A stretch of DNA of 64,000 nucleotides, taken from contig JAGUCH010000002.1 of NCBI GenBank assembly GCA_019096065.1, positions 198,501-262,500 of the forward strand, written 5' to 3'. The position numbers and the translations under genes are program-made. Below are positions 9,290 to 61,035 of the stretch, piece after piece. Numbering within the stretch: the first letter of the stretch is position 1; each line of letters starts with the position of its first letter. Below the pieces are notes generated by a model, which did not search any database, was not told where the DNA came from, and was given only the letters and a program-made list of their open reading frames with translations. The stretch comes from Paracyclopina nana (lineage: Eukaryota; Arthropoda; Copepoda; Cyclopoida; Cyclopettidae).

Positions 9290-10602
9290 CCCAACTAGGA
9301 AATTTTTTTGGATGCTAAGCAGGTTCTGGACATGCAAAGACAAGTTTTTGCCACTACATTGAAATGTTAGAAACTGCATCAAAAACGTGTACAATTTTTT
9401 GATGTGTATTCTAACAATTTTTTTGCTGCTCTATCCCTATCTTCTGGTTTACGGCAATTCTGCTGACATTTCTACCGGTTAGAAATCTGGCGTAAACTTG
9501 TTCATGTCACATACATGTTTTCAACTATTTTCTATATTTTTCATGAACAAGTTTACTACAGGAAATCTGTGACATTTCATGTGGATGATTGCAACAGATT
9601 TCTACCAAAAATCTGGAGATGATGCTAATTGTCCTGAATGCATGTTTTCTTACATGAAACCAACAGTTTTTCTAACAAACCTTAATTCAAAATGTAGTAA
9701 ATCTGACGATCCCTTTCTGAGCAAGAATGATCTGGAATTTTGCCGAAATCAGCTTGGAGCCGGCCATCAGCAGACATTTTGGTTGTGGCAAGCTATTTGA
9801 AAATTAAAAGTTTGCTAGTTGAACACATGATGGTTCTTCATCAATAAAAGCCTTCCAAGGCAAAGCAAGACCTTCCTGAGCTGAAGAACATCAAGCAAAT
9901 ACCCTTGATAGAGATAATTTTCTAGGGAGAGTGCAAAGGTAAGGCATTACAAAATTATAAAGGAAGGAAGTCATGTGACTAAACACTTAATTTTTAAGGT
10001 TTTGACTCAGGAGAGGGGCAGAAATTCATCAACCCTTAATTTGGATGACAAATTCCCCAATTCCCCACAACTAGCATCAACACAAAGCATGGACATCTAC
10101 TAAGATCCCTACAAGCCTTACAAGACCTGAATTGGCAAAAACGAGAGCAAGACAATTCATTATGTTTAAATATTATTAGAATATACATATTTCCTGTAAT
10201 GCAAGGCTGTAAGAGGCCAATGAGGCCACAAAGGGCAGCAAGGCCTGAATTCGCGACCTTTTTCAAGCTCCATGCAAAGACAAGTTTTCAACAAGCAAAA
10301 AAAAAATAGCATCACTTTCTTAGCAAGCTTTCGAGTAAAGCTGTTGAAAACATAACAGAATGCAACTGTAGATGGGCCTCGGTCATTTTACCAAATGTAG
10401 AAGCGACATTTTTGCTGAAATGAGTGGGTAAAGTTATCGCGATAACAATTCATTTAAAGTCAGTCTTCCTGAAGCTTGCATCTCCAGATTGGCTAACATG
10501 AATGTACCAGTATAGAAGATGTTTGTTAAGATTTTGTAGATAAATCAGCTCGATATTCTGAACATGTCAGCATCATTCTGACCCTTAATTTTCCTAGTTG
10601 GG
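9290..10602. mobile_element. 1,313-bp DNA transposon with CCCAACTAG ends and TG duplication
   Basis: The termini are CCCAACTAGGAAA (9290-9302) and TTTCCTAGTTGGG (10590-10602), a perfect 13-bp inverted repeat. TG is found on both sides (9288-9289, 10603-10604), and the uninterrupted target exists at 57133-57241, where only one TG is present. The ends resemble those of the elements at 6226 and 6527 (consensus CCCAACYAG then A-rich). Internal open frames (9579-9800 +, 10036-10266 -) are under 80 codons with no recognisable domain, so it is non-autonomous. Confidence 0.88.
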
Positions 10603-10690
10603 TGGTTAGGCAGCGCGGCTCGTACTATGCTACTATACTACGATATTACTGAAGGACGACGCGCTAGCGCCATGAATGGTGAAAGTTATA
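10603..10690 (+). repeat. Right part of the split ~110-bp interspersed repeat
   Basis: GTTAGGCAGCGCGGCTCGTA to GGTGAAAGTTA matches 57156-57241 with only a few substitutions (for example CGATATT against CTATATT). Together with 9265-9289 it forms one repeat copy cut by the transposon. Confidence 0.85.
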
Positions 10691-11214
10691 AAAACATAAC
10701 ACAGTTGTTTGCACATGACGCTTTGGCGGAAAAGTGGAAAAAATAATTTTTGAGTTACACCCTAAAAGTTTTTATAAATGGCCAGTTTTTGCAAAAAACA
10801 GCCCAAATAACTCATAATGTGCTCTGATTGGTCAAAAAAAGGGGCGGGAAATGGTGGTTGGCAAGGCTGTTTTTTTTATGTATCTTTTGACCTTGTCATC
10901 ATTGAAGTCAACAGACTGATCTTGTTTGATTAATCGAGCTAATACCTTTAGCGAGGACTTCTTATCAGGCCAGCTTTAGCATATGCTACAATAGCTTCTT
11001 TATTTACTTTTCTCATGAGCGAGTTCTCCCAACTTTGCTTGAATTGCTCAGTTTAGAGCACAACTTTCTAGCTTAAAAAAATGAAAAAGCTAACAGACAG
11101 TTCCCTTTCTTTTACAGCATGCATGTTAGGTTACAATTAAGTATTAATACTGCCAGCGAATTATAGAAGTAAATAAATGGGCAGAATCGGCTGGGCGTTC
11201 TGGTGCAGGTTGCC
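10691..11214. other. Single-copy spacer with promoter-like motifs
   Basis: No gene seen. It contains an inverted CCAAT box (ATTGG, 10827-10831) and a GC-box/E2F-like GGGGCGGGAAA (10841-10851) ten bases apart. No downstream coding exon on either strand could be tied to them. Confidence 0.35.
10827..10851. promoter_or_regulatory. CCAAT + GC/E2F-like motif pair
   Basis: ATTGG followed by GGGGCGGGAAA in AT-rich DNA. The reverse reads TTTCCCGCCCC, matching the E2F core TTTCCCGC. No associated transcript can be identified here. Confidence 0.25.
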
Positions 11215-11339
11215 CCACGGAAGGCTGCGTCTGCAGAGCCAGCTTACAAATGCAATGAAACTAGCCGTTCTCTATGCAATGATTCACGGTTAATCTTATC
11301 AAATAAGGCACGAAGTCACATTACTCCACTGCTCAAGAA

Positions 11340-14300
11340 CTGCAAACCGTGTTCTCTGTTTTGAATCACGGTTGGGCTTGTCAGGGACTTTTCATTTTTT
11401 CCGAGGTCAAGTCAACCGGGGTTTGCTGAGCGATTCGAGGCCAAGAAAAAACTTTGCCTAACCCCCAAGTACCGGACTCCCATATTTTTTATCTGTCTTT
11501 CCTTTTGGGTGGGATCATTGGGATCATTTGGGATCAAAATGGGAACAAGAATTGCAAACTGTGTTCTCCGCTTTGAATCACGGTTGGCATTATCAGGGAC
11601 TTTTCATTTTTTCTGAGGTCAAGTCAACTGGGGTTTGCTGAGCAATTCGCAGCCAAAAAAAACTTTGCCTCACCCCCAAGTACCGGACTCCCATATTTTT
11701 TATCTGTCTTTCTTTTGGGGTGGGATCATTGGGATCATTTGAGATCAAATGTGTACTAAAACTGCAAACCGTGTTCTCCGCTTTGAATCGCGGTTGGGCT
11801 TGTCAGGGAAATTTCGTTTTTACCGAGGTCAAGTGAACCAGGGTTTGCTGAGCAATTGGCGGCCAAAAAAAAATTTGCCTCATGCCAAAGTACCTGACTC
11901 TTATATTTTTTATCTGTCTTTCCTTTTGGGTGGGATCATTGGGATCATTTGGGATCAAAATGGGAACAAGAACTGCAAACCGTGTTCTCCGCTTTGAATC
12001 ACGGTTGGGATTGTAAGGGACTTTTCATTTTTTCGAGGTCAAGTCAACCGGGGTTTGCTGAGCAATTCGAGGCCAAGAAAAAACTTCGCCTCATGCCCAA
12101 GAACCGGACTCCCCTATTTTTTATCTGTCTTTCTTTTTGGGTGGGATCATTGGGATCATTTGGGATCAAATGTGTACTAGAACTGCAAACCGTGTTCTCC
12201 GCTTTGAATCGCGGTTGGGCTTGTCAGGGAAATTTCGTTTTTACCGAGGTCAAGTGAACCGGGGTTTGCTGAGCCATTTGCGGCCAAAAAAATTTGCCTC
12301 ATGCCAAAGTACCTGACTCAGATATTTTTATCTGTCTTTCTTTTTGGGTGGGATCATTGGGATCATTTGGGATCAAATGTGTACTAGAACTGCAAACCGT
12401 GTTCTCCGCTTTGAATCGCGGTTGGGCTTGTCAGGGAAATTTCGTTTTTACCGAGGTCAAGTGAACCGGGGTTTGCTGAGCAATTGGCGGCCAAAAAAAA
12501 ATTTGCCTCATGCCAAAGTACCTGACTCTGATATTTTTTATCTGTCTTTCTTTTTGGGTGGGATCAGTGGGATCATTTGGGATCAAAATATGTTCAAGAA
12601 CTGCAAACCGTGTTCTCCGCTTTGAATCGCGGTTTGGCTTGTCAGGGAAATTTCGTTTTTACCGAGGTCAAGTGAACCAGGGTTTGCTGAGCAATTGGCG
12701 GCCAAAAAAAAATTTGCCTCATGCCAAAGTACCTGACTCTTATATTTTTTATCTGTCTTTCTTTTTGGGTGGGATCATTGGGATCATTTGAGATCAAATG
12801 TGTACTAGAACTGCAAACTGTGTTCTCCGCTTTGAATCGCGGTTGGGCTTGTCAGGGAAATTTCGTTTTTACCGAGGTCAAGTGAACCGGGGTTTGCTGA
12901 GCAATTGGCGGCCAAAAAAATTTGCCTCATGCCAAAGTACCTGACTCAGATATTTTTATCTGTCTTTCTTTTTGGGTGGGATCATTGGGATCATTTGGGA
13001 TCAAATGTGTACTAGAACTGCAAACCGTGTTCTCCGCTTTGAATCGCGGTTGGGCTTGTCAGGGAAATTTCGTTTTTACCGAGGTCAAGTCAACCGGGGT
13101 TTGCTGAGCCATTTGCGGCCAAAAAAAAATTTGCCTCATGCCAAAGTACCTGACTCTGATATTTTTTATCTGTCTTTCTTTTTGGGTGGGATCATTTGGG
13201 ATCAAAATATGTTCAAGAACTGCAAACCGTGTTCTCCGCTTTGAATCGCAGTTGGGCTTGTCAGGGAAATTTCGTTTTTACCGAGGTCAAGTCAACCGGG
13301 GTTTGCTGAGCCATTTGCGGCCAAAAAAAAATTTGCCTCATGCCAAAGTACCTGACTCTTATATTTTTTATCTGTCTTTCTTTTTGGGTGGGATCATTGG
13401 GATCATTTGGGATCAAATGTGTACTAGAACTGCAAACCGTGTTCTCCGCTTTGAATCGCAGTTGGGCTTGTCAGGGAAATTTCGTTTTTACCGAGGTCAA
13501 GTGAACCAGGGTTTGCTGAGCAATTGGCAGCCAAAAAAAAATTTGCCTCATGCCAAAGTACCTGACTCTTATATTTTTTATCTGTCTTTCTTTTTGGGTG
13601 GGATCATTGGGATCATTTGGGATCAAATGTGTACTAGAACTGCAAACTGTGTTCTCCGCTTTGAATCACGGTTGGCATTATCAGGGACTTTTCATTTTTT
13701 CTGAGGTCAAGTCAACTGGGGTTTGCTGAGCAATTCGCAGCCAAAAAAAACTTTGCCTCACCCCCAAGTACCGGACTCCCATATTTTTTATCTGTCTTTC
13801 TTTTGGGGTGGGATCATTGGGATCATTTGAGATCAAATGTGTACTAAAACTGCAAACCGTGTTCTCCGCTTTGAATCGCGGTTGGGCTTGTCAGGGAAAT
13901 TTCGTTTTTACCGAGGTCAAGTGAACCAGGGTTTGCTGAGCAATTGGCGGCCAAAAAAAAATTTGCCTCATGCCAAAGTACCTGACTCTTATATTTTTTA
14001 TCTGTCTTTCCTTTTGGGTGGGATCATTGGGATCATTTGGGATCAAAATGGGAACAAGAACTGCAAACCGTGTTCTCCGCTTTGAATCACGGTTGGGATT
14101 GTAAGGGACTTTTCATTTTTTCGAGGTCAAGTCAACCGGGGTTTGCTGAGCAATTCGAGGCCAAGAAAAAACTTCGCCTCATGCCCAAGAACCGGACTCC
14201 CCTATTTTTTATCTGTCTTTCTTTTTGGGTGGGATCATTGGGATCATTTGGGATCAAATGTGTACTAGAACTGCAAACCGTGTTCTCCGCTTTGAATCGC

Positions 14301-15225
14301 GGTTGGGCTTGTCAGGGAAATTTCGTTTTTACCGAGGTCAAGTGAACCAGGGTTTGCTGAGCCATTTGCGGCCAAAAAAAAATTTGCCTCATGCCAAAGT
14401 ACCTGACTCAGATATTTTTATCTGTCTTTCTTTCTGGGTGGGATCATTGGGATCATTTGGGATCAAATGTGTACTAGAACTGCAAACCGTGTTCTCCGCT
14501 TTGAATCGCGGTTGGGCTTGTCAGGGAAATTTCGTTTTTACCGAGGTCAAGTGAACCGGGGTTTGCTGAGCAATTGGCGGCCAAAAAAAAATTTGCCTCA
14601 TGCCAAAGTACCTGACTCTTATATTTTTTATCTGTCTTTCTTTTTGGGTGGGATCATTGGGATCATTTGGGATCAAATGTGTACTAGAACTGCAAACTGT
14701 GTTCTCCGCTTTGAATCGCGGTTTGGCTTGTCTGGGAAATTTCGTTTTTACCGAGGTCAAGTCAACCGGGGTTTGCTGAGCAATTGGCGGCCAAAAAAAA
14801 ATTTGCCTCATGCCAAAAGTACCTGACTCTGATATTTTTTATCTGTCTTTCTTTTGGGATGGGATCATTGGGATCATTTGAGATCAAATGTGTACTAAAA
14901 CTGCAAACCGTGTTCTCCGCTTTGAATCGCGGTTGGGCTTGTCAGGGAAATTTCGTTTTTACCGAGGTCAAGTGAACCAGGGTTTGCTGAGCAATTGGCG
15001 GCCAAAAAAAAATTTGCTTCATGCCAAAGTACCTGACTCAGATATTTTTATCTGTCTTTCTTTTTGGGTGGGATCAGTGGGATCATTTGGGATCAAAATA
15101 TGTTCAAGAACTGCAAACCGTGTTCTCCGCTTTGAATCGCGGTTTGGCTTGTCAGGGAAATTTCGTTTTTACCGAGGTCAAGTGAACCGGGGTTTGCTGA
15201 GCAATTGGCGGCCAAAAAAAAAATT
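11340..15225 (+). repeat. ~209-bp tandem array, left arm of the foldback-like element
   Basis: About 18-19 head-to-tail units, mostly 207-211 bp (landmarks GTGTTCTCC at 12192, 12399, 12610, 12820), some shorter. Blocks include AACTGCAAACCGTGTTCTCC, GGAAATTTCGTTTTTACCGA, GGGTTTGCTGAGCAATTGGC, CATGCCAAAGTACCTGACTC and GGGTGGGATCATTGGGATCA. The outermost units (11340-11760) are the most diverged. A stretch of about 650 bp near 11690-12340 recurs almost unchanged near 13780-14430, a higher-order duplication. Open frames of up to about 200 codons run through several units because many units are exactly 210 bp. Confidence 0.95.
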
Positions 15226-15450
15226 GCTTAAGCACCTGACAGGATGGCTTTTGGTACCAATATGCAATAGAGCGATTCTTTTGTCAAAATCTAAAAAAAT
15301 CTTTTTACAAATACCAGATATTTGCAAATATAAGCAAAATATCGCGCATTATTTTGTTGATATTTTCGCATGTGAACAGGGCCTTAATTGCGCATGTCAA
15401 AAATGCATTTTCAGCTTTATTACTGTGCTACATAAGCATGCAGTTAAGTA
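15226..15450 (+). other. Single-copy junction between the two satellites
   Basis: About 225 bp of AT-rich, non-repeated sequence between the left 209-bp arm and the 169-bp array. It has no counterpart at the right junction (18216), where the satellites meet abruptly. No gene recognised. Confidence 0.6.
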
Positions 15451-18215
15451 CCGCGCGATGCGCAAGCTTTCTCTCTTGCGAATTCAAAATAAGTCAAAAG
15501 TTTGACTTTGTCTCATATTTTGAGTCAAGTTGACTCAAACTATCGCCTGCAACTGATATTCTGACTCAAAATTGACTTGGTCAAGAATTTCGTGTTTTAT
15601 TAGCAATTAAGTAGAAGTACCGCGCGATGCGCAAGTTTTCTCTCTGGCGATTTTAAAATGAGTCAAAAGTTTGACTTTGCCTCATATTTTGAGTCAAGTT
15701 GACTCAAACTATCGCCTGCAACTGATATTTTGACTTAAAATTGACTTGGTCAAGAATTTTGTATCTTATTAGCAATTAAGTAGAAGTACCGCGCGATGCG
15801 CAAGTTTTCTCTCGTGCGAATTTAAATGGATTGAAAAGTTTGACTTTGTCTCATCTTTTGAGTCAAGGTGACTCAACCTATCGCCTGCAACGGTTATTCT
15901 TTCTGAAAATGGGCTTGGGCATGGATTTCGTGTTTTATTAGCATTTAGGTATAAGTACAGCGCGATGCGCAAGTTTTCTCTCTGGCGAATTTAAAATGAG
16001 TCAAAAGTTTGACTTTGCCTCATATTTTGAGTCAAGTTAACTCAAACTATCAACTGCAACTGACATTTTGACTTAAAATTGACTTGGTCAAGAATTTTGT
16101 ATCTTATTAGCAATTAAGTAGAAGTACCGCGCGATGCGCAAGTTTTCTCTCTGGCGAATTTAAAATGAGTCAAAAGTTTGACTTTGCCTCATATTTTGAG
16201 TCAAGTTGACTCAAACTATCGCCTGCAACTGATATTTTGACTCAAAATTGATTTGGTCAAGAATTTCGTGTTTTATTAGCAGTTAAGTAGAAGTACCGCG
16301 CGATGCGCAAGTTTCTCTCTTGCGAATTCAAAATAAGTCAAAAGTTTGACTTTGTATCATATTTTCAGTCAAGTTAACTCAAACTATCGCCTGCAACTTA
16401 TATTTTGACTTAAAATTGACTTGGTCAAGAATTTTGTATCTTATTAGCAATTAAGTAGAAGTACCGCGCGATGCGCAAGTTTTCTCTCTGGCGAATTCAA
16501 AATAAGTCAAAAGTTTGACTTTGTCTCATATTTTGAGTCAAGTTGACTCAAACTATCGCCTGCAACTGATATTCTGACTCAAAATTGACTTGGTCAAGAA
16601 TTTCGTGTTTTATTAGCAATTAGGTAGAAGTACTGCGCGATGCGCAAGTTTTCTCTCTGGCGAATTTAAAATGAGTCAAAAGTTTGACTTTGCCTCATAT
16701 TTTGAGTCAAGTTAACTCAAACTATCAACTGCAACTGACATTTTGACTTAAAATTGACTTGGTCAAGAATTTTGTATCTTATTAGCAAATAAGTAGAAGT
16801 ACCGCGCGATGCGCAAGTTTTCTCTCTGGCGAATTTAAAATGAGTCAAAAGTTTGACTTTGCCTCATATTTTGAGTCAAGTTGACTCAAACTATCGCCTG
16901 CAACTGATATTTTGACTCAAAATTGATTTGGTCAAGAATTTCGTGTTTTATTAGCAGTTAAGTAGAAGTACCGCGCGATGCGCAAGTTTCTCTCTTGCGA
17001 ATTCAAAATAAGTCAAAAGTTTGACTTTGTCTCATATTTTGAGTCAAGTTGACTCAAACTATCGCCTGCAACTGATATTTTGACTCAAAATTGACTTGGT
17101 CAAGAATTTCGTTTTTTATTAGCAGTTAAGTAGAAGTACCGCGCGATGCGCAATCTTTCTTTCTTGCGAATTAAAAATAAGTCAAAAGTTTGACTTTGTC
17201 TCATATTTTGAGTCAAGTTGACTCAAACTATCGCCTGCAACTGATATTCTGACTCAAAATTGACTTGGTCAAGAATTTCGTGTTTTATTAGCAATTAAGT
17301 AGAAGTACCGCTCGATGCGCAAGTTTTCTCTCTGGCGAATTTAAAATGAGTCAAAGTTTGACTTTGCCTCATATTTTGAGTCAAGTTAACTCAAACTATC
17401 AACTGCAACTGACATTTTGACTTAAAATTGACTTGGTCAAGAATTTTGTATCTTATTAGCAATTAAGTAGAAGTACCGCGCGATGCGCAAGTTTTCTCTC
17501 TGGCGAATTTAAAATGAGTCAAAAGTTTGACTTTGCCTCATATTTTGAGTCAAGTTGACTCAAACTATCGCCTGCAACTGATATTTTGACTCAAAATTGA
17601 TTTGGTCAAGAATTTCGTGTTTTATTAGCAGTTAAGTAGAAGTACCGCGCGATGCGCAAGTTTCTCTCTTGCGAATTCAAAATAAGTCAAAAGTTTGACT
17701 TTGTCTCATATTTTGAGTCAAGTTGACTCAAACTATCGCCTGCAACTGATATTTTGACTCAAAATTGACTTGGTCAAGAATTTCGTGTTTTATTAGCAGT
17801 TAAGTAGAAGTACCGCGCGATGCGTAAGCTTTCTCTCTTGCGAATTCAAAATAAGTCAAAAGTTTGACTTTGTCTCATATTTTGAGTCAAGTTGACTCAA
17901 ACTATCGCCTGCAACTGATATTCTGACTCAAAATTGACTTGGTCAAGAATTTCGTGTTTTATTAGCAATTAAGTAGAAGTACCGCGCGATGCGCAAGTTT
18001 TCTCTCTGGCGATTTTAAAATGAGTCAAAAGTTTGACTTTGCCTCATATTTTGAGTCAAGTTGACTCAAACTATCGCCTGCAACTGACATTCTGACTCAA
18101 AATTGACTTGGTCAAGAATTTCGTGTTTTATTAGCAATTAAGTAGAAGTACCGCGCGATGCGCAAGTTTTCTCTCTTGCGAATTTAAAATGAGTCAAAAG
18201 TTTGACTTTGTCTCA
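15451..18215 (+). repeat. ~169-bp satellite array, core of the foldback-like element
   Basis: About 16 units of ~169 bp. CCGCGCGATG recurs at 15451, 15620 and 15789. Each unit has GCGCGATGCGCAAG, ATGAGTCAAAAGTTTGACTT and the perfect palindrome TGAGTCAAGTTGACTCA, then GACTCAAAATTGACTTGGTC and TTTTATTAGCA. Several unit subtypes recur in blocks of about 850 bp, so multi-unit segments were also amplified. Related units occur inverted in the 3717-bp repeat (31-43 kb) and, more diverged, at 59100-59535. Confidence 0.95.
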
Positions 18216-20640
18216 TTGCAGTTCTAGTACACATTTGATCCCAAATGATCCCAATGATCCCACCCAAAAAGAAAGACAGATAAAAAATATCTGAGTCAGG
18301 TACTTTGGCATGAGGCAAATTTTTTTTTGGCCGCCAATTGCTCAGCAAACCCCGGTTCACTTGACCTCGGTAAAAACGAAATTTCCCTGACAAGCCAAAC
18401 CGCGATTCAAAGCGGAGAACACGGTTTGCAGTTCTAGTACACATTTGATCCCAAATGATCCCAATGATCCCACCCAAAAAGAAAGACAGATAAAAAATAT
18501 AAGAGTCAGGTACTTTGGCATGAGGCAAATTTTTTTTTGGCCGCCAATTGCTCAGCAAACCCTGGTTCACTTGACCTCGGTAAAAACAAAATTTCCCTGA
18601 CAAGCCCAACCGCGATTCAAAGCGGAGAACACGGTTTGCAGTTCTAGTACACATTTGATCTCAAATGATCCCAATGATCCCACCCAAAAAGAAAGACAGA
18701 TAAAAATATCTGAGTCAGGTACTTTGGCATGAGGCAAATTTTTTTTTGGCCGCCAATTGCTCAGCAAACCCCGGTTCACTTGACCTCGGTAAAAACGAAA
18801 TTTCCCTGACAAGCCAAACCGCGATTCAAAGCGGAGAACACAGTTTGCAGTTCTAGTACACATTTGATCCCAAATGATCCCAATGATCCCACCCAAAAAG
18901 AAAGACAGATAAAAAATATAAGAGTCAGGTACTTTGGCATGAGGCAAATTTTTTTTTGGCCGCCAATTGCTCAGCAAACCCTGGTTCACTTGACCTCGGT
19001 AAAAACGAAATTTCCCTGACAAGCCCAACTGCGATTCAAAGCGGAGAACACGGTTTGCAGTTCTTGAACATATTTTGATCCCAAATGATCCCAATGATCC
19101 CACCCAAAAAGAAAGACAGATAAAAAATATCAGAGTCAGGTACTTTGGCATGAGGCAAATTTTTTTTTGGCCGCAAATGGCTCAGCAAACCCCGGTTGAC
19201 TTGACCTCGGTAAAAACGAAATTTCCCTGACAAGCCCAACCGCGATTCAAAGCGGAGAACACGGTTTGCAGTTCTAGTACACATTTGATCCCAAATGATC
19301 CCAATGATCCCACCCAAAAAGAAAGACAGATAAAAATATCTGAGTCAGGTACTTTGGCATGAGGCAAATTTTTTTGGCCGCCAATTGCTCAGCAAACCCC
19401 GGTTCACTTGACCTCGGTAAAAACGAAATTTCCCTGACAAGCCAAACCGCGATTCAAAGCGGAGAACACAGTTTGCAGTTCTAGTACACATTTGATCCCA
19501 AATGATCCCAATGATCCCACCCAAAAGGAAAGACAGATAAAAAATATAAGAGTCAGGTACTTTGGCATGAGGCAAATTTTTTTTTGGCCGCCAATTGCTC
19601 AGCAAACCCTGGTTCACTTGACCTCGGTAAAAACAAAATTTCCCTGACAAGCCCAACCGCGATTCAAAGCGGAGAACACGGTTTGCAGTTTTAGTACACA
19701 TTTGATCTCAAATGATCCCAATGATCCCATCCCAAAAGAAAGACAGATAAAAAATATCAGAGTCAGGTACTTTTGGCATGAGGCAAATTTTTTTTTGGCC
19801 GCCAATTGCTCAGCAAACCCCGGTTGACTTGACCTCGGTAAAAACGAAATTTCCCAGACAAGCCAAACCGCGATTCAAAGCGGAGAACACAGTTTGCAGT
19901 TCTAGTACACATTTGATCCCAAATGATCCCAATGATCCCACCCAAAAAGAAAGACAGATAAAAAATATAAGAGTCAGGTACTTTGGCATGAGGCAAATTT
20001 TTTTTTGGCTGCCAATTGCTCAGCAAACCCTGGTTCACTTGACCTCGGTAAAAACGAAATTTCCCTGACAAGCCCAACTGCGATTCAAAGCGGAGAACAC
20101 GGTTTGCAGTTCTAGTACACATTTGATCCCAAATGATCCCAATGATCCCACCCAAAAAGAAAGACAGATAAAAAATATAAGAGTCAGGTACTTTGGCATG
20201 AGGCAAATTTTTTTTTGGCCGCAAATGGCTCAGCAAACCCCGGTTGACTTGACCTCGGTAAAAACGAAATTTCCCTGACAAGCCCAACCGCGATTCAAAG
20301 CGGAGAACACAGTTTGCAGTTCTAGTACACATTTGATCCCAAATGATCCCAATGATCCCACCCAAAAAGAAAGACAGATAAAAAATATAAGAGTCAGGTA
20401 CTTTGGCATGAGGCAAATTTTTTTTTGGCCGCCAATTGCTCAGCAAACCCCGGTTCACTTGACCTCGGTAAAAACGAAATTTCCCTGACAAGCCCAACCG
20501 CGATTCAAAGCGGAGAACATGGTTTGCAGTTCTAGTCCACCCAATCCCACCCAAAAAGATAGACAGATAAAAAATATCAGAGTTAAGTACTCAGGCTTTG
20601 TTTGGCCGTTAATCGCTCAGCTAACCTCAGTTCACTTGAC
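18216..20640 (-). repeat. ~209-bp tandem array, right arm (inverted)
   Basis: About 11-12 units of the same repeat as 11340-15225 in reverse orientation, for example GTTCTAGTACACATTTGATC and GATCCCAATGATCCCACCC. It meets the 169-bp satellite directly at 18215/18216. Minus-strand open frames of up to 263 codons (19763-20554) mirror those of the left arm and have no start, splice or codon features of a gene. Confidence 0.95.
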
Positions 20641-20860
20641 CTCAGTAATAATGAAATGTTGTGTGATTTTGTGCCTGATTAATTCTTGTTATGTTTAACC
20701 GTGTGTCAAAGCACTGAGAACGGCAAGTTTTCATTGCATTTGAAGGCTGGCTCTGCAGACGCAGCCCCACGGAAAACGCAACAGCCGCACAGCCAAGCAG
20801 CGCTAAGGCTTGTTTACATTTGGTGCGGTTTCCGAGAGTCGGAGGCCCATACTAAATACT

Positions 20861-21130: not shown

Positions 21131-24100
21131 GAATTCTTGACCCAATGGTGAGTTTTGCTGAGAATTTGAGGCACCTGAGTCAACCCCAACCTGTAGATTC
21201 AGCAAGGATCTACAAAATCCGTTTTTTGGCTGCCCTGAAACGCCCACAGTAGTACTTTTTTTCAGCTTTGAGCAGTCTCAGCATTCTTGACCCTTTGCTG
21301 AGCTCTGCTGAAAATTTGAGGCAGCTGAGTCAATTTTAAGGGCCGATTTCAGGAATATCAACAAACTGCTAGCTACTGCCCATGTACTGAATGTTGACCA
21401 GCATAAAATGGAAAGATAAAAATGGGTCATTTACTCACATCTGAGACCTGACTCAGCATTCTTGACCCAATGCTGAGTTTTGCTGAGAATTTGAGGCACC
21501 TGAGTCAACCCCAACCTGTAGATTCAGCAAGGATCTACAAAATCCGTTTTTTGGCTGCCCTGAAACGCCCACAGTAGTACTTTTTTTCAGCTAAGAGCAG
21601 TCTCAGCATTCTTGACCCTTTGCTGAGCTCTGCTGAAAATTTGAGGCAGCTGAGTCAATTTTAAGGGCCGATTTCAGGAATATCAACAAACTGCTAGCTA
21701 CTGCCCATGTACTGAATGTTGACCAGCATAAAATGGAAATACAAAAATGAGTCATTTACTCACTTCTGAGACCTGACTCAGCATTCTTGACCCAATGCTG
21801 AGTTTTGCTGAGAATTTGAGGCACCTGAGTCAACCCCAACCTGTAGATTCAGCAAGGATCTACAAAATCCGTTTTTTGGCTGCCCTGAAACGCCCACAGT
21901 AGTACTTTTTTTCAGCTAAGAGCAGTCTCAGCATTCTTGACCCTTTGCTGAGCTCTGCTGAAAATTTGAGGCAGCTGAGTCAATTTTTAGGGCCGATTTC
22001 AGGAGTATCAACAAACTGCTAGCTACTGCCCATGTACTGAATGTTGACAAGCATAAAATGGAAATACAAAAATGAGTCATTTACTCACTTCTGAGACCTG
22101 ACTCAGCATTCTTGACCCAATGCTGAGTTTTGCTGAGAATTTGAGGCACCTGAGTCAACCCCAACCTGTAGATTCAGCAAGGATCTACAAAATCCGTTTT
22201 TTGGCTGCCCTGAAACGCCCACAGTAGTACTTTTTTTCAGCTTTGAGCAGTCTCAGCATTCTTGACCCTTTGCTGAGCTCTGCTGAAAATTTGAGGCAGC
22301 TGAGTCAATTTTAAGGGCCGATTTCAGGAATATCAACAAACTGCTAGCTACTGCCCATGTACTGAATGTTGACAAGCATAAAATGGAAATACAAAAATGA
22401 GTCATTTACTCACTTCTGAGACCTGACTCAGCATTCTTGACCCAATGCTGAGTTTTGCTGAGAATTTGAGGCACCTGAGTCAACCCCAACCTGTAGATTC
22501 AGCAAGGATCTACAAAATCCGTTTTTTGGCTGCCCTGAAACGCCCACAGTAGTACTTTTTTACAGCTAAGAGCAGTCTCAGCATTCTTGACCCTTTGCTG
22601 AGCTCTGCTGAAAATTTGAGGCAGCTGAGTCAATTTTAAGGGCCGATTTCAGGAATATCAACAAACTGCTAGCTACTGCCCATGTACTGAATGTTGACAA
22701 GCATAAAATGGAAATACAAAAATGAGTCATTTACTCACTTCTGAGACCTGACTCAGCATTCTTGACCCAATGCTGAGTTTTGCTGAGAATTTGAGGCACC
22801 TGAGTCAACCCCAACCTGTAGATTCAGCAAGGATCTACAAAATCCGTTTTTTGGCTGCCCTGAAACGCCCACAGTAGTACTTTTTTTCAGCTTTGAGCAG
22901 TCTCAGCATTCTTGACCCTTTGCTGAGCTCTGCTGAAAATTTGAGGCAGCTGAGTCAATTTTAAGGGCCGATTTCAGGAATATCAACAAACTGCTAGCTA
23001 CTGCCCATGTACTGAATGTTGACCAGCATAAAATGGAAAGATAAAAATGGGTCATTTACTCACATCTGAGACCTGACTCAGCATTCTTGACCCAATGCTG
23101 AGTTTTGCTGAGAATTTGAGGCACCTGAGTCAACCCCAACCTGTAGATTCAGCAAGGATCTACAAAATCCGTTTTTTGGCTGCCCTGAAACGCCCACAGT
23201 AGTACTTTTTTTCAGCTAAGAGCAGTCTCAGCATTCTTGACCCTTTGCTGAGCTCTGCTGAAAATTTGAGGCAGCTGAGTCAATTTTTAGGGCCGATTTC
23301 AGGAGTATAAACAAACTGCTAGCTACTGCCCATGTACTGAATGTTGACAAGAATAAAATGGAAATACAAAAATGAGTCATTTACTCACTTCTGAGACCTG
23401 AATCAGCATTCTTGACCCAATGCTGAGCTAAGCTGAGAATTTTAGGCACCTAAGTCAACCCCAACCTGTAGATTAAGCAAGGATCTACAAAATCCGTTTT
23501 TTGGCTGCCCTGAAACGCCCACAGTAGTACTTTTTTTCAGCTTTGAGCAGTCTCAGCATTCTTGACCCTTTGCTGAGCTCTGCTGAAAATCTGAGGCTGC
23601 TGAGTCAATTTTAAGGGCCGATTTCAGGAGTATCAACAAATTGCTGAGTAAAGCCCAAGTACGGAAAGTTGACAGGTTTAAAATGGAAATACAAAAATGA
23701 GTCATTTACTCACTTCTGAGACCTGACTCAGCATTCTTGGCCCATTGCTGAGTTTTGCTGAAAATTTTAGGTACCTGAGTCAACCCCAACCTGTAGATTC
23801 AGCAAGGATCTACAAAATCCGTTTTTTGGCTGCCCTGAAACGCCCACAGTAGTACTTTTTTTCAGCTTTGAGCAGTCTCAGCATTCTTGACCCTTTGCTG
23901 AGCTCTGCTGAAAATTTGAGGCAGCTGAGTCAATTTTTAGGGCCGATTTCAGGAGTATCAACAAACTGCTAGCTACTGCCCATGTACTGAATGTTGACAA
24001 GCATAAAATGGAAATACAAAAATGAGTCATTTACTCACTTCTGAGACCTGACTCAGCATTCTTGACCCAATGCTGAGCTAAGCTGAGAATTTTAGGCACC

Positions 24101-24570
24101 TAAGTCAACCCCAACCTGTAGATTAAGCAAGGATCTACAAAATCCGTTTTTTGGCTGCCCTGAAACGCCCACAGTAGTACTTTTTTTCAGCTTTGAGCAG
24201 TCTCAGCATTCTTGACCCTTTGCTGAGCTCTGCTGAAAATCTGAGGCTGCTGAGTCAATTTTAAGGGCCGATTTCAGGAGTATCAACAAATTGCTGAGTA
24301 AAGCCCAAGTACTGAAAGTTGACAGGCATAAAATGGAAATACAAAAATGAGTCATTTACTCACTTCTGAGACCTGACTCAGCATTCTTGGCCCATTGCTG
24401 AGTTTTGCTGAAAATTTTAGGTACCTGAGTCAACCCCAACCTGTAGATTCAGCAAGGATCTACAAAATCCGTTTTTTGGCTGCCCTGAAAAGTCCACAGT
24501 GGTACTTTTTTTCAGCTAAGAGCAATCTCAGCATTTTTGACCCTTTGCTGAGTTCTGCTGAAAATTTTCA
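21131..24570 (+). repeat. 325-bp satellite array, left block (+)
   Basis: About 10.6 units of 325 bp; GACCTGACTC recurs at 21445, 21770 and 22095. Each unit carries TGACTCAGCATTCTTGACCC, CCAACCTGTAGATTCAGCAA, GGCTGCCCTGAAACGCCCAC, TTTTTTTCAGCTAAGAGCAG, CTGCTAGCTACTGCCCATGT and ATGAGTCATTTACTC. The right-hand four units are more diverged. The block ends at 24570 in CTGCTGAAAATTTT, 465 bp before the stop codon of the transposase gene, and is mirrored by an inverted array at 48062-54494. Confidence 0.96.
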
Positions 24571-25034
24571 TTTTATCATTATTTGTTTTTATTGCGAATA
24601 TTTGTCATAGATGAAAGATTTTTTCAGGTGTTCAGGAGTTTTCCATTTTCTTCCACTTCTTGATTTTGGGGTTGGATTTTTGTGAGCCAAAGTAACTTCG
24701 TCAGATTCTTCTGAAAGAAACCATTGCATCACAATTTCAAATATGTTTGATAAACTTATTTATGAATATTTTTGGTATTTCCTTGAAGTTGCTCAGCATT
24801 CGGCACACAACAGGCACTCAGCTGACACAACAAATCAAAGATGCAAAGTGACAGACAATGAATCAGCTGGTAATTTTAATGCAATGATTGCCAATAGCAA
24901 AAATACTTTATTATCTGGTTTAATGTAAAACTTTTTTAAAAAGTAACAAGTGCTTAAGTGGTATCACCAGAGCTTGAATTACCAAAAGAAGCTTTGTTTT
25001 GCTTCATTTTCAAGTTTTCCAGTCTCATTTCTGC
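24571..25034. other. Spacer between 325-bp array and transposase gene
   Basis: AT-rich single-copy sequence, probably the 3' flank and UTR of the transposase gene. The 61-codon frame at 24743-24928 has no recognisable domain. Confidence 0.5.
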
Positions 25035-28000
25035 TCAGTAATTTTTGTATCTTTTAGGAGTTTTCAAGGTACGACCACCCTTTGTTTGGCGATTCTTTTT
25101 GCTTTTCTCCTCATCTTCAAATTTCTTTCTTGCACCAATTTCCATTGAAGCAGCCATAGCTTCAAAAAAACTTTTCTTCACTGGCTTGTCATCTGTCTTT
25201 GAATTTTTTGGTTGGTTTACATTTTGTTCTATAAAAGTAAACAAGATTTCTCAAAAAGAAGATAAAGTGATTTATCTTAATCACATTAAATAGCTTTTCA
25301 AAAGCTTGAAGGAACTGTGTCAATGAATGCCATACATCTTCAATTTCATGCATAAAATCTGATGAAAAATTATCATTGCTGTGTTCGAGCTGTGTGCCAA
25401 CTGGGTCATTTTTTTTTTTTTTTGGAAAATTAGATGTTTTCATTTTAAATGTACTGCATTTCAGTTTTTGTGTAACAAATAGACAAGGTCAAATAAGCAA
25501 TGTAATATGGAGGCTTATAGCTCATCAACTATTGAATTGATTGGCACCAAATTTTGTGGGATTCATAAGAAGAGCATTATGAGCCACCATACCAAATTAC
25601 AAATATTCATAAGACAAATCTGACACTCTACATGAAAAAGGACCTGAATGAAATGCAATCATACCTTTCCTCAGTGATTGGCCTTTGAATGTAACAGTGT
25701 TGTCTGGCGAATTGTCTTCATCTGGATACAACAGGTCATCATTTTCATTGTCAAAAATGTCTAAAATAGAAAAAAATATTAAAAAGTTCATTTCTCCAAC
25801 GAAGAGCAATACAGATTTCTTCAATCCATGAAGTTGTAAAATAGTTTTGCTATTATATGTTTTCATATTTTCAGTTTCTTTGTATTTATCTCTGATAATT
25901 TGTCACAATTGTATTAGCATAAGAGCATATGTAGGTGAACCCTTACTTTTAAGCATAAACGCTCTAACATATACTATGAAGAGTAGAAAAACATTTTTGT
26001 CATGTGAATTGGATAATTTTTATAAAAAAACCTTTATTAAATTGACAATTAGAATTTATTCTGGGCTTTGTAGATACGTATTGTTTAACAAACTATTAGA
26101 AACCCAACCTCGTTAAAACAAAAATTAGCCTTAAAGTAACTGACTTAAATTGAAAAATATAGCATACTTTGCCGTATACTATGTATTAGCATTTCAGCTC
26201 TTAATCATTTAGTTTCTAAATATATAAGCATGTAAAAACAATATTTATTGCTCCTACCGTGTCTAGAATGCAATCGTTTCTCATTTGGCTTTGCAACACC
26301 AACATCATCTAAAGCTGTTGATCGGGAGCGTTTCTTATCCACAGCATCATCTATAACGGTAATTTGCAATGCATGCAGCTTCTAATTCAAAAATTTAAAT
26401 AAGTATTGCCTTACTTGACTTAGAGTCATTTCCTCCCTGAAACTTCTTGAGTGGAGTGGAAGTCTTTTCAATAACCAATGCTGTGTCAATGTCTGCGATT
26501 TCATTGAGTGATTTCTCAATTCCTTTCCACGGAGTTTTGCCTGAGCTTTCAAAGCTTTGATGATTCTTCCTATTACACATCTTCTGTGTTTCAAGGAGCC
26601 CTTTTGAATCGGGGGGGTGAAAGTCTCCTAGTAATTTGTAATGTATAGTACTATATTTGTTTAAATGCAAATTGAATCATTCAAATAGTATTCTCTTGAC
26701 TTGATTGCCATGATTCAATCAGCATATGTATTCTTGTTATTCATGATGACAATTAATAACACATGCATCAAGAAAATCTGAGTCCTCATAGACAATAATG
26801 TACCTCATTAAATCTTTTTTCAATGCAATTAAACATTAGCCCAGTTCCAACAGCAAAAAATTAGTATAGTATAAGTACTATTAACCAGTATAGTATGGTG
26901 CAAATGAGCAAGTGAGCTAGCATGGATGATACTATACTTATAAGTATAGATAAGGTGTCCATACTATACTGATTTTGATTGTTGGTCACAGGCTTTAGAC
27001 TATTTTGACTATATCTTAATGCAAATCAATTAAAGGCAAATAATCAATTTTGATCCTCAATTAATGCAACAAATCAACATTTGATAAAGCAGATGACTTT
27101 GACATGTCACCATTTTGCATAGAATAATTGAAAAATTTTATTGTTGATAAGGTGGCTCTATACTTACTTGCCATTTCCTCTAAACCATTGTTGGATGCGT
27201 TCTGCAATTGATTTACCCCATTGTCAGAAATCAAGTTCTCCACTAACTTGAAACCATCACTTTCAGAAGCTATAGCACCAAATGACTTAGATCTTCTTCC
27301 TATCTTTGCTGGTTCTGATGTTGGTAATGTCTGACTGCTACATCTCCCATTTGGGTGAGGCTTGGCACTTTTTCCCTTGCTTCTGCTTCTTTCAGCAGCA
27401 GATCTTACTTTTTGACCAGGTTTTTTTGCTTAGAAATAAAGCATATTATTAATCCCACTAAACATTATTGGCTTTTCATACAATTCATGATATTTCTAGT
27501 GCATGCAAAGGCTTCTAAATTGATTGATTATAATACAATATAGACAATTTTTACATCCTAATATTAACCAGTGTAAGGAGTTATTGCCATGGGTAAAAAT
27601 GTTTTAGTTTAAGAATCATACCAGAGTATGACTTGTCCTTGATCACCATTCCTTCATCAGAAGCCACATAGCCATCAGGCCTTTCAGATGGATCTGGAGT
27701 AGTCAGGGCTTTCAGAAGCTTTCTAATGTGTGCTTCCCGTTTCTCCATAGACCACCTATTCCAATTTTCTGCAGCTACCTCAAACTTCTTGTACTCTCCT
27801 TTTAGCCTGAAGCGCCCTTCATTGGTTATGGCTGATTTAAAATCAGCAAGCTGTAAGTGTGTACAAATGCACATGTATGTTTTGCACTTACTATTTTAAT
27901 CAAATTTGTAGCCTAAACAATTTTGCAAAAATGCATTTATACTTTTGAATTTATGCTGATTCAATGTAAGGTTTGTTTTTCTAACAATGTCAACTGAATC

Positions 28001-29798
28001 TAATGTGCCATTAGTTCAGATATCAACCTTACCTGTCCATTTTGGTAATCAGTCAGAACACTGACACCCATATCCAGAGTTTGAAGTTTGTGGCCAAATA
28101 CTGTCTTCACTGCCGAATTAGCTGCCTCTCCTCTCTAAAATCATGAAGTGACCAGGTTACCTTGACATTCAAAGAGTTGCTGTGTTCTACAGTTTCTCAG
28201 TAACTTATCCATGATTGAAAACATCAGAAACATTGTTTAATAACAACATCTCAGACTATTATACACCAAGGCCATAATTTTAAAATTCAAGAATGAAAAA
28301 TTTAAACATGTCAAAAAAACTTATTTCTAAACATTTCTTTGAATTTGGTAATCTGGTCACATTCCTGATTCATCCAGTTGGCCAAGTTTTCTGAAACCTT
28401 CATGCATGGAGTAATCACATGATCCCAAATGACTTGCTTCATTTTGGCCAAATAAGCATCATTTTGAAAATCGCTTGAGTACTTTGTTCGAAACTCCAAA
28501 AATCGCTCGTCATACTCCACTTCATCTCGCAAAGATATCAATCCATTTCTCTTGTTGAAAATTGCTGACTCAATTTCAGCTATTTTTTTGGACAAGACAC
28601 CAACTTTGGTCAAGTTTCTTGACACACCTTCTTTTAAGTGCTTGCAGCAAGTGACATGGATTGTCTGTTTTTTGAAGCCATTGGTCATACCATTTACAAG
28701 TGCACGTTCCTGATCACTCCCAGTGATCACAAAAGTCTCCTCAGTGAATGGTTTGATTGCACTCAAACGCATGCTCAGGTTTTCATAGAATGGTAAAAAA
28801 TCCTCATAGGTGCACCCAAAATGAAGATATTGAGCTGCTATAAAAGTTGGCGTCTCATTTGTGCCTACAAAATGAAATAGGACTTCATTTATTCGTTTAA
28901 TTTAACCATGCTGTTTAGGTAGAATTGATTCTTCTAATATGTCAAGGCCATTTGCGTTAAAAGGACCATATGAAGCATAACATTTACCCATTCAAAAATT
29001 ATGAGCATACAGCTTGCACCACAAATTGAAAGGTAATTTGAAGACCAAGGTAGTAGTATTTGAATTAAAAAGTTGCTTTTATGACATTCTTCATAAAGAT
29101 GAAAAATAATTTGGTGCAATTAATCAATGCAAAAAAGACATGAATGGCAATATTGGTCTTATTGGGATAAGCAAATAATGTTACCATACTTCCAACTACT
29201 GTTTCTTGCCTTTTACACATAAAATGCGAAAGAAGAGAACTATGTGGACATGGCTATCTTGAATTACCTTGAACTTCCAGGCATTTGCACTCAAACACAA
29301 CCTGGGTCAAAAAGAAAGTTCCAACGTTAAAAGTAACATCAGAACATAACACAGTTGGATCTCGGGAATCAGTTGTCACGCATGCTCGGGCTAATGCCAT
29401 CATGTCATTGTGATAAAGGACAACGTCAGGTTGGCCTTGCCTGAGTTGCCCTTGAAACAGCTTTTGGATGAATTGAGACTTTGGATTGTTCGAATCTGTC
29501 ATCATATTCACAACCTTCACACATGCATTGGCAAGGTTGGTTGAGCGTGGTCCATACTTTGCCTTGTTTTGGTTGTACTTCCTTAGGATAATAAGTCTCA
29601 AAAATTATGCATGCCTAGCTTTCACAAACAAATAAAAAAAGATCACCTGTTTTGACACTGTTTGAGGTCTTTTGGGCGCTCAAGTCCAGTTTTCTCTCCC
29701 AAGACAGTTATGTACGCACCAATGGGTGGCTTAGACTTGACATTGTCATCAATGAGGTCTTCAGTTTCAGGCTGGCACTTCATGTGAGGGCGAGTATT
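25035..29798 (-). CDS. Mutator-like (MULE) transposase-derived gene, multi-exon, 5' end missing
   Basis: Eleven exons join in frame: 29798-29647, 29596-29268, 28864-28321, 28132-28033, 27850-27622, 27428-27168, 26627-26415, 26350-26258, 25760-25665, 25400-25285 and 25196-25035, giving 764 residues to a TGA stop. The donor at 28321 is weak (AA/GTTTTT). The middle carries the MULE-type DDE core: first acidic motif SDVTFNVGTFF, second GSDQERALVNGM about 70 residues later, then CCKHLKEGVSRNL, and later GEAANSAVK, as in animal MULE transposases. The C-terminal ~330 residues are Lys/Ser-rich and polar, with acidic exons. No zinc finger is seen; it may have been in missing 5' exons, because satellite begins 77 bp upstream. 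All visible exons are open. Many introns, mostly phase 1, are unusual for a transposon and leave open domestication, or an intron-bearing autonomous element whose terminal repeats are the flanking 325-bp arrays. Confidence 0.82.
25440..25610 (+). mobile_element. Fragment related to the 55330-56257 element
   Basis: Inside a transposase-gene intron. AGACAAGG, GAGGCTTATAGCTCA, ATTGGCACCAAATTT and GCCACCATACCAAATT occur in the same order as in the reverse complement of 56120-56250, with about 80-85% identity by eye. It is an end fragment lacking clear termini. Confidence 0.65.
26887..26970. repeat. Intronic 12-bp inverted repeat
   Basis: AGTATAGTATGG (26887-26898) and CCATACTATACT (26959-26970) can form a stem around a ~60-nt loop in the 540-nt intron between exons 27168 and 26627. 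Several further TATAGTA-type repeats lie between them. Function unknown. Confidence 0.5.
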
Positions 29799-29874
29799 CT
29801 GTAATAAAAATATTACCTAACACTTTTTTGTTCAAAAAGAAAAGACTCCCTTGCAAAAGCCTCCCAAATATGAA

Positions 29875-31135: not shown

Positions 31136-31137
31136 TT

Positions 31138-34100
31138 AGCTAAAACTATTGACTTATAGTTTGAGTCAACTTGACTCAAAATGTGAGGCAAAGTCAAACT
31201 TTTGACACTTTTTGATTTCGCAAATGCCAAAACTTGCGCATCGCGTTATGCTACTAGATGACAGCTATGAAAACGCGAAATTCTTGACTGAGTCAAATTT
31301 TAGTAAAAATGAGCTGAAATAACTGATCACTCCTTGAAGGACATTGACCACTCACTGATGGCCAAAAATGACCACTCACTGATGGCCAAAAAATGACCAC
31401 TCACTGATGGCCAAGAAATAACCACTCCTTATTGTGAAAGGTTGCGAGATAATTCAAAAAATGAAATTAGGGAGTGGTCATCATTCCGATGGCTAATGGC
31501 ATTGATGGGACAAACCACCCATTTTCAAGTATTTGGTATCAAATGAATTCTACTGACCTCAGGAACTCATTTTACCCAACTTTGCCTTGAGGTCCCATCA
31601 GTACGTCCCATCAGTGCAGGCCGTCCTCATTTATTTAGTCACTGATGGGACTCGAGTCTTATCAGTGCTACAAATGAACAACACAGTCTACCCTATCCAA
31701 TTCTACCCAATCCTAGTGTAGCCAATCCTAGTCTTTGATCCCATTGTAGCCTATTTGTGACACCAATCCTAGTGTATCCCATCTTTGTCTGCCATATCCT
31801 AGTCCTCCAAACATTTTCTCCCAAATCCTTGTCTTCCCAATCATAGTCTCACAAATCCTAGTTTACCCAATCCTAGTCTACCCAATACTTGTCAAACCAA
31901 ATCCTAGTGTAACTGAACCTTGCCCTCCAAATCATTTCTCCAAAATCCCAGCCTACACAATCCAGGATAATAAAATGGAAATACAAAAATGAGTCATTTA
32001 CTCACTTCTGAGACCTGACTCAGCATTCTTGACCCAATGCTGAGTTTTGCTGAAAATTTGAGGCACCTGAGTCAACCCCAACCTGTAGATTCAGCAAGGA
32101 TCTACAAAAACCGTTTTTTGGCTGCCCTGAAACGCCCACAGTAGTACTTTTTTTCAGCTAAGAGCAGTCTCAGCATTCTTGACCCTTTGCTGAGCTCTGC
32201 TGAAAATTTGAGGCAGCTGAGTCAATTTTTAGGGCCGATTTCAGGGTATCAACAAACTGCTAGCTACTGCCCATGTACTGAATGTTGACAAGCATAAAAT
32301 GGAAATACAAAAATGAGTCATTTACTCACTTCTGAGACCTGACTCAGCATTCTTGACCCAATGCTGAGTTTTGCTGAAAATTTGAGGCACCTGAGTCAAC
32401 CCCAACCTGTAGGTTCAGCAAGGATCTACAAAAACCGTTTTTTGGCTGCCCTGAAACGCCCACAGTAGTACTTTTTTTCAGCTAAGAGCAGTCTCAGCAT
32501 TCTTGACCCTTTGCTGAGCTCTGCTGAAAATTTGAGGCAGCTGAGTCAATTTTTAGGGCCGATTTCAGGAGTATCAACAAACTGCTAGCTACTGCCCATG
32601 TACTGAATGTTGACAAGCATAAAATGGAAATACAAAAATGAGTCATTTACTCACTTCTGAGACCTGACTCAGCATTCTTGACCCAATGCTGAGCTAAGCT
32701 GAGAATTTGAGGCACCTGAGTCAACTCCAACCTGTAGATTCAGCAAGGATCTACAAAAACCGTTTTTTGGCTGCCCTGAAACGCCCACAGTAGTACTTTT
32801 TTTCAGCTAAGAGCAGTCTCAGCATTTAGTTTTAGTAGCTAAGACTTGCATGACTTAAGCCAAGACGAAGGAAATGTGCTCTGAATAATTGAGCCAATGA
32901 AAACTTATAAGGCTAAGCTTTCTTAAGTTAATAAGAACTGGACTTGACTTTTGCAAATGACCACTCCTTGATGGGACTTTTAATTAGATTTATTCCTAGC
33001 CAGACAGATTTCCAAGTTTTAGTGAAAAAATAACCACTCCTTGATTAGACTTAGTCTCCCAAGGCTTAGTCAAGTTATGGCTTAGACTTGTATGACTTAT
33101 GCTAGGACTTGAAAGCAGTACTTTAAGTAAATGAGTCTGCAAAACTTATTTGGCTTATCTCTCTTAAGTTACTTAGTACTGGACTTGACTTTTGCAAAGA
33201 ACCACTCCTTGATGGGACTTTTAATTACATTTATTCCTAGCCAGACAGATTTCCAAGTTTTAGTGAAAAAATAACCACTCCTTGATTAGACTTAGTCTCC
33301 CAAGGCTTAGTCAAGTCATGGCTTAGACTTGTATGACTTATGCTAGGACTTGAAAGCAGTGCTTTAAGTAAATGAGTCTGAAAAACTTATTTGGCATAGA
33401 TCTCTCAAGTTACTTAGTACTGGACTTGACTTTTGCAAAGAACCACTCCTTGATGGGACTTATAATTAGATTTATTCCTAGCCAGACAGATTTCCAAGTT
33501 TTAGTGAAAAAATAACCACTCCTTGATTAGACTTAATCTCTTAGAGCTAAGTCAAGTCCTTATAGCTAAGACTTGCATGACTTAAGCAAGGACTTGAAAG
33601 CAACTTGACCCTAAATGTTTGGCAAAGTCACACTTTTGACTCATTTTGAACTCGCAAGAGCAAAAACTTGCGCATCGCCTTATACTTCTACTTATGTGCT
33701 AATAAAACCCGAAATACCTGGTTAAGTCCATTTTGAGTCAAAATGTCAGTTGCTGCTGATAGTTTGAGTCAACTTGACTCAAAATGTGAGGCAAAGTCAA
33801 ACTTTTGACACTTTTTGATTTTGCAAATGCCAAAACTTGCGCATCGCGTTTTACTACTAGATGACTGCTATGAAAACTCGAAATTCATGACTTAGTCAAA
33901 TTTCAGTCAAAATGTCAGTTGCAGCTGATAGTTTGAGTCAACTTGACACAAAATGTGAGGCAAAGTCATACTTTTGACACTTTTTGAATTTGCAAATGCT
34001 GAAATTTGCGCAACGTGTTATACTAAATCAGTCTGAACTGAAAACGTAGTTAAAAAGGACAAAACAGAGTGACCACTTACTAATGTGACATTGACCTCTT

Positions 34101-48010: not shown

Positions 48011-48061
48011 TACAAAAATATGCACTATTCTCCAAAATGCTTGCTTTTGAAAGAATGGTAT

Positions 48062-54494: not shown

Positions 54495-54495
54495 T

Positions 54496-57132: not shown

Positions 57133-57241
57133 GTACATCCTGCTAGGTGAAAGTGTGGTTAGGCAGCGCGGCTCGTACTATGCTACTATACTACTATATT
57201 ACTGAAGGACGACGCGCTAGCGACATGAATGGTGAAAGTTA
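57133..57241 (+). repeat. Intact copy of the ~110-bp interspersed repeat (empty site)
   Basis: It joins without interruption the two sequences that flank the transposon at 9290-10602 (9265-9289 and 10603-10690), so it represents the pre-insertion state, with a single TG at 57156-57157. Confidence 0.85.
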
Positions 57242-57339
57242 AAAAGGCCACATAACGGCCGCGACTGCATAGGCAGGGATCAAATGCAAGCAAAACTTTA
57301 TTTATTTTCACAAAAAATATAGATTACGCCGTGTGAACT

Positions 57340-57430: not shown

Positions 57431-57439
57431 TTTTGCTTC

Positions 57440-60945: not shown

Positions 60946-61035
60946 TCTAAGTTTTGCTTGCATTTGATCCCTGCCTATGCAGTCGCGGCCCTACTTACTT
61001 AATAGGTGAGTTAAAATTGATTATTTTTAAATTGT

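Follow-up and report, generated by a model that had tools for sequence, protein, structure and literature searches.

A probable foldback-type transposon with tandem-repeat arms and a satellite core in the copepod Paracyclopina nana

Introduction

How does an inverted pair of tandem-repeat arrays come to enclose an array of a different satellite: by local rearrangement of satellite DNA, or by insertion of a transposable element? The question is raised by a locus at positions 11223-20766 of a 64,000-nucleotide stretch of Paracyclopina nana DNA (contig JAGUCH010000002.1, forward strand), the whole of which is called the window here. We propose that this ~9.5-kb element, introduced as E1, is very probably a foldback-type DNA transposon of the cut-and-paste kind, non-autonomous and inserted in an animal genome. 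The proposal is based on its ends, on the organisation of its arms, and on a second, smaller element in the window, E2.

Results

Boundaries and target-site duplication

E1 has inverted ends, with CCACGGAA adjoining each side. The terminal sequence GGCTGCGTCTGCAGAGCC has two exact matches in the window, at 11223-11240 (plus strand) and 20749-20766 (minus strand), and one further match if 3 mismatches are allowed (59524-59541, minus strand); shuffles of the window gave an expectation of 0.00 matches at up to 3 mismatches. When the left and right termini are aligned, bases 1-21 are identical (21/21), bases 22-43 agree in 19 of 23 alignment columns, and bases 44-98 agree in 43 of 61. A tip that is kept while the adjoining DNA has diverged is what would be expected if the tip alone is recognised, and constraint in the termini looks confined to it.

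The octamer CCACGGAA forms a target-site duplication at 11215-11222 (left) and 20767-20774 (right). Across the 64 kb it is present on the plus strand only at these two flanks and on the minus strand once, at 5281, with chance expectations of 0.53 and 0.47, respectively; the probability that two random 8-bp flanks are identical is about 2e-5. Both the matching inverted outer ends and the 8-bp duplication had been claimed in the original prediction, and both are borne out by these counts. When the window was scanned for duplication-flanked inverted ends, E1 was not among the best 25 candidates listed for each duplication length; the output was flooded by array-internal matches (144 at 8 bp versus 0 in each of 10 shuffles).

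The insertion site, with 11184-11222 joined to 20775-20798 so that one octamer copy is left, is an imperfect palindrome with CCACGGAA at the apex of the hairpin. The single-strand DNA energy of this hairpin corresponds to a z of -2.99 and is equalled by 1 of 200 shuffles, a single post-hoc test to be taken as a lead only.

Internal organisation of E1

In the left terminus (11223-11335, plus strand), a degenerate stretch collinear with the 210-bp unit of the arms adjoins the conserved tip (bases 1-43). This terminus is followed by the left arm, 18.6 copies of the 210-bp repeat (11336-15227, plus strand), by a spacer of 218 bp (15228-15445) of which no second copy was found in the window, and by the core, 16.4 copies of a 169-bp satellite (15446-18216, plus strand). 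At 18216 the core runs without a spacer directly into the right arm, which holds 11.1 inverted copies of the 210-bp repeat (18216-20540, minus strand). The right terminus (20541-20766, minus strand) combines the conserved tip with a diverged partial 210-bp unit (20544-20657), which is 72-79% identical to the array units, a similarity that 0 of 500 shuffles reached. The open reading frame listings show no long non-repeat frame inside E1 or E2.

The original prediction had described inverted ~209-bp-repeat arrays around an unrelated 169-bp satellite. The inverted arrays are there, the unit length has to be corrected to 210 bp, and the 218-bp spacer between left arm and core had been missing from the layout. 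The core satellite is indeed unrelated to the arms as far as can be detected: its similarity to the 210-bp unit is not significant, shuffles being as good in 34 of 300 cases on the plus strand and in 166 of 300 on the minus strand.

Origin of the arm unit and exchange between the arms

The 210-bp unit aligns with bases 21-82 of the right terminus and with bases 21-80 of the left, in a common register. Among the 210 possible rotations of the unit, the right end scored highest at 192 and the left at 191. At rotation 192, a register picked after inspection of earlier unconstrained alignments, none of 2000 mononucleotide shuffles matched the score of either end. Since the unit is collinear with the subterminal DNA, the arms resemble tip sequence that has been amplified, and they appear to derive from the element's own tip.

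For a comparison of individual repeats, 19 units (L00-L18) were taken from the left arm and 11 whole units (R00-R10) from the right; an 18-base stub (R11) of the right arm was excluded from the counts. The innermost left-arm unit, L18, is degenerate (70.5% to the consensus). Over its entire 2,325 bp, the right arm can be aligned with the left arm in inverted orientation, at about 94%. The longest exact matches across the arms measure 417, 374 and 351 bp, and exact repeats inside the right arm do not exceed 165 bp. An exact internal duplication of 708 bp, in which L01-L04 recur as L11-L14, is present in the left arm. The nearest relative of six of the 11 whole right-arm units lies in the left arm, with identities of 100% (R02-L10, R03-L16), 99.5% (R00-L15, R05-L07), 99.0% (R01-L09) and 98.1% (R06-L05). 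R07 is a tie, and the other four (R04, R08, R09, R10) are closest to units of their own arm. Because exact matches are longer across the arms than within the right arm, we conclude that the inverted arms exchange sequence, and the cross-arm matches would fit pairing of the arms and conversion between them. The arrays seen today, then, need not equal those present at insertion.

A second element, E2

E2 (57257-60990), which lies 36 kb from E1, was found by a low-threshold comparison among the non-array segments of the window. It is the smaller of the two elements, and its arms are made of a different repeat. The E2 tips (57257-57298, plus strand; 60949-60990, minus strand) start with GGCCGCGACTGCATAGGCAGGGATCAAATG, are 42 bp long, inverted and 100% identical to each other, and are homologous to the tips of E1. 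A model built from the E1 ends only gave both E2 ends a score of 27.1, ranking them next after E1's own; 20 shuffled windows reached 20.0 at most. Conversely, an E2-only model scored the E1 ends at 27.9 and 25.0, for a shuffled maximum of 15.7; units of a 325-bp satellite exceed this maximum as well, with 18.6.

Inside the tips, both arms of E2 consist of a 19-bp repeat, which makes up about 4.4 copies in the left arm (57340-57428, plus strand) and about 54 copies, inverted, in the right arm (59913-60939, minus strand). The E2 core is in two parts, the first a 158-bp satellite (57428-58862, plus strand) and the second a 170-bp one (59104-59523, plus strand) that is a diverged homologue of the E1 core. 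GGGATCAAATG is found both in the E2 tips and in the 210-bp unit of E1, a weak similarity that was equalled by 26 and 12 of 500 shuffles under strict settings and by 141 and 115 of 500 under loose ones. By eye, the octamer CCGTGTTC was noticed in both arm repeats, the 210-bp and the 19-bp one.

The left flank of E2 (57155-57245) is a dispersed repeat, which matches 10602-10692 at 96.7% without gaps. A gapped extension of this alignment, with its last 7 bases past a 4-base gap, covers the related site up to its end (10602-10700, plus strand) and stops at 57256, the base before the E2 tip, without entering E2. We regard this as modest support for the left boundary, since the repeat copy may end there by coincidence. 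The right flank showed no match of this kind.

At 9290-10601, a copy of the dispersed repeat is split by a 1.3-kb element with inverted ends of about 15 bp (CCAACTAGGAAA...) and an implied target duplication of 2-3 bp (TG or GTG); the uninterrupted copy of this repeat adjoins E2 (57133-57245).

The inexact GGCTGCGTCTGCAGAGCC match at 59524-59541, which agrees with the E1 tip in 15 of 18 positions, was considered as a third element and rejected. The GACTTTGCC half of this match belongs to the 170-bp satellite as well, and on the E1-ends model the match scores 14.0, about the mean best score of shuffled windows (13.9).

The core satellite family

The 170-bp satellite of E2 and the 169-bp satellite of E1 are related in the same orientation (score 172, shuffled maximum 38). 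The 169-bp family is also found inside a composite tandem unit of 3,717 bp at 31-43 kb, where tips were not recognised, and the best pair of the E1 core reaches 86.5% with the satellite of that region versus 71.6% with the E2 core. Its presence outside the recognised elements means that the satellite is not exclusive to E1 and E2; it may be cargo, may go back to an internal region of the ancestor or may have been acquired independently. A relationship of the 158-bp satellite to this family was not established: its score is 27 against the E1 consensus, 27 against that of E2 and 22 against that of 31-43 kb, for shuffled means of 12-13 and shuffled maxima of 31, 33 and 33, respectively.

The composite unit is repeated in tandem about 3 times at 31136-43121, with 99.9% identity, and comprises tandem arrays of 25, 15/30, 325, 241 and 169 bp. 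The 325-bp satellite additionally forms two large arrays in opposite orientation (21133-24567 and 48061-54496) with about 96% identity, around which no inverted tips were found.

Other features of the window

The Pfam search of the window detected innexin exons (PF00876) at 45548-45955 and, more weakly, at 47690-48007; these exons (45548-48007 in all) are separated by a 15-bp minisatellite (CCTAGTCTACCCAAT). It also detected a protein kinase domain, and these genes mark the window as animal DNA. The outermost parts of the window, 1-2342 and 61661-64000, are direct repeats of 2.34 kb with 98.8% identity, 61.66 kb apart, that run off both window ends. Either the sequence has undergone a large tandem duplication, or two haplotypes overlap in the assembly.

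Discussion

Type of element

In E1, long inverted ends that are mostly tandem repeat go together with an exact 8-bp target duplication, and the window contains one further element with homologous tips. The original prediction had taken the locus for a transposable unit and had compared it with the foldback elements of Drosophila; the tandem-repeat inverted arms, the duplication and the homologous-ended E2 agree with this. We file E1 under the foldback structural class, in which its long arms and its satellite core set it apart. Members of the hAT superfamily have tips beginning with CAG, and Helitrons or Helentrons with central repeats have neither a target duplication nor long inverted ends. 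The tips of E1 and E2 begin with GGC, and E1 has an 8-bp duplication as well as inverted ends, which fits neither affiliation. The length of the E1 duplication falls in the range of 8-11 bp given for Mutator and Mutator-like elements (MULEs; PMC6446971). Of the superfamilies, Mutator and P seem the likeliest candidates.

Several observations weigh against this interpretation of E1 and of its arms. No transposase was identified in the window; an interrupted coding region at 25000-29800 (minus strand) looks MULE-transposase-like by eye, with no convincing Pfam match to any family and no inverted ends found around it. E2 lacks a target duplication, its flanks reading CACATAAC and CTACTTAC, and thus only one of the two elements has one. 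Moreover, the similarity between tip and arm unit is weak in unconstrained alignments, with shuffles as good in 10 of 500 (loose) and 410 of 500 (strict) cases for the left end and in 79 of 500 (loose) and 40 of 500 (strict) for the right, and turns strong only when collinearity is imposed.

The mismatched flanks of E2 could stem from later ectopic recombination or from loss of one side. E2 would be a second member of the family with a different arm repeat, and by analogy with Galileo copies that have unmatched flanks, its own flanks may result from recombination between copies.

Searches beyond the window returned nothing relevant. In viral contigs, the tip pattern occurred at 6 loci, none of which continued like a tip, and a 20-mer of the arm had no match. 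A scan of genome contigs with a 16-mer, which is too short, gave at least 117 stretches, with bacterial records among the 80 listed, and blastn of 123 scan-derived loci against the window found no match at E values up to 1e-3.

According to our proposal, a transposase supplied in trans would recognise the conserved tip of ~35 bp, GGCYGCGWCTGCA.AG.CAG....CAAATGCAA, make an 8-bp staggered cut and move any DNA lying between two such tips. Slippage or unequal exchange would then multiply the DNA just inside the tip into a tandem array, with a unit of 210 bp in E1 and of 19 bp in E2. The two arms might then pair and convert one another, and satellites would accumulate in the loop between them.

Related elements

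Judged by anatomy, the closest known system is Tetris of Drosophila virilis, a foldback described as non-autonomous, with its transposase not found (PMC4079207). As described there, its inverted ends consist of tandem repeats of about 220 bp (210 bp in E1), repeat and outer domain share a 37-bp stretch at about 80%, which parallels the relation of tip and unit in E1, and the target duplications measure 8-10 bp (8 bp in E1). The Tetris middle domain, of variable composition and with no apparent coding capacity according to the same source, may be likened to that of E1; its inverted ends are given as up to 1,735 bp, compared with arrays of 3.9 kb and 2.3 kb in E1 (PMC4079207). The authors also state that the repeats can turn into satellite arrays, infer amplification inside inserted copies, and prefer an assignment to Mutator on account of duplication length and earlier suggestions on foldbacks (PMC4079207); elsewhere, Tetris is tabulated among satellite-founding transposons (PMC9659126). 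Unlike Tetris, E1 has a satellite array for its middle, and its sister element is built with another arm repeat; the likeness is one of description.

Galileo, of the P superfamily, is reported to have long inverted ends with internal repeats, whose length is about 210 bp in one group of D. mojavensis, and tips of ~40 bp that are kept from family to family although each family has long arms of its own, as in E1 and E2 (PMC3688188, PMC3573991). Twelve chimeric Galileo copies without matching target duplications resemble E2 in this respect; the authors invoke recombination between copies for those with unmatched flanks, and transposase binding sites have been found experimentally in the repeats (PMC3688188, PMC3573991). 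Galileo differs from E1, however, in its 7-bp duplications, its P-type transposase and the handful of repeat units per arm described there (PMC3688188, PMC3573991). The view that arms this long with a satellite as cargo are unusual, expressed in the original prediction, goes too far: Tetris has arms of the same design and a variable middle, and Galileo repeats are of about the same length in one group.

Sea urchin TU elements are likewise foldbacks with repeat-built arms, 8-bp duplications and heterogeneous middles from other repeat families. For these, the Tetris paper cites 'Lieberman et al. 1983' (PMC4079207). Tm1, a Mutator/Foldback element of root-knot nematodes, is described with composite inverted ends containing a variable number of ~14-bp repeats, reminiscent of the 19-bp arms of E2, and shares with our elements arms of unequal length and with E1 a duplication length in the range of 8-10 bp; it differs in that the duplications are mostly 9 bp, the terminal motifs are asymmetric and a putative transposase is known (PMC3169594). 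The Mutator-like Rehavkus is comparable in carrying a minisatellite by its inverted end, but has 9-bp duplications, encodes a transposase and carries the minisatellite before its 3' end (PMC6446971).

Did the arrays move, or did they grow in place?

The target duplication dates the ends only and the arms keep exchanging sequence, so the arrays may have grown after insertion. A small foldback element, or one like a miniature inverted-repeat transposable element (MITE), holding a small number of repeat units and hardly any core, could have inserted with the 8-bp duplication, with arms and core growing in place and the arrays never having moved. We consider this a serious possibility, if short of probable; it is a variant of the transposon explanation and compatible with its first half. 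The large local changes in the arms speak in its favour, namely the exact 708-bp duplication in the left arm and the exact cross-arm matches of up to 417 bp, and the Tetris authors likewise infer amplification in inserted copies (PMC4079207). On the other hand, repeat arms and a core satellite of the E1 family recur in E2, a hint that this layout is older than either insertion. A tentative and rather doubtful extension is a modular family, with a single conserved tip of ~35 bp that mobilises self-grown arms of unrelated sequence plus a satellite core and carries full-length 169/170-bp arrays to new sites. The earlier statement that the arrays were moved as one unit is upheld for transposition of the ends and not for joint travel of the full-length arrays, as the duplication bears on the ends alone.

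Could the locus, instead, be a local inversion or hairpin of satellite DNA, with inverted ends and an 8-bp repeat at its breakpoints by chance? The other arrays of the window, around which no such ends were found, would be in line with local satellite rearrangement, but the exact tips and the octamer (P about 2e-5 for the latter alone) as well as homologous tips on a separate element with different arms make this explanation extremely improbable. An assembly artefact, wrongly joining an inverted array and the satellite core, is conceivable in so repetitive a region, and the 2.34-kb direct repeat (98.8%) at both window ends could be a haplotype overlap. In the same window, however, tandem copies of the 3,717-bp unit were resolved at 99.9% identity, which suggests a long-read assembly, and the target duplication of E1 fits a real insertion; we therefore hold a misassembly of E1 to be very unlikely. 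The preferred reading of E1 remains that of an inserted foldback-type transposon.

Implications

E1 is a good, largely expected example of transposons making satellite DNA. What is new here is the collinearity of the arm unit with the element's own subterminal DNA, the exchange across the arms, and E2 with its homologous tips. Together they make a two-element case for transposon-born satellites, in which a repeat unit may be traced to the element's own tip, the arms exchange sequence, and a sister with a different unit is tied to E1 by its homologous tip. If the modular family were real, the arrays it moves would seed a satellite-rich animal genome.

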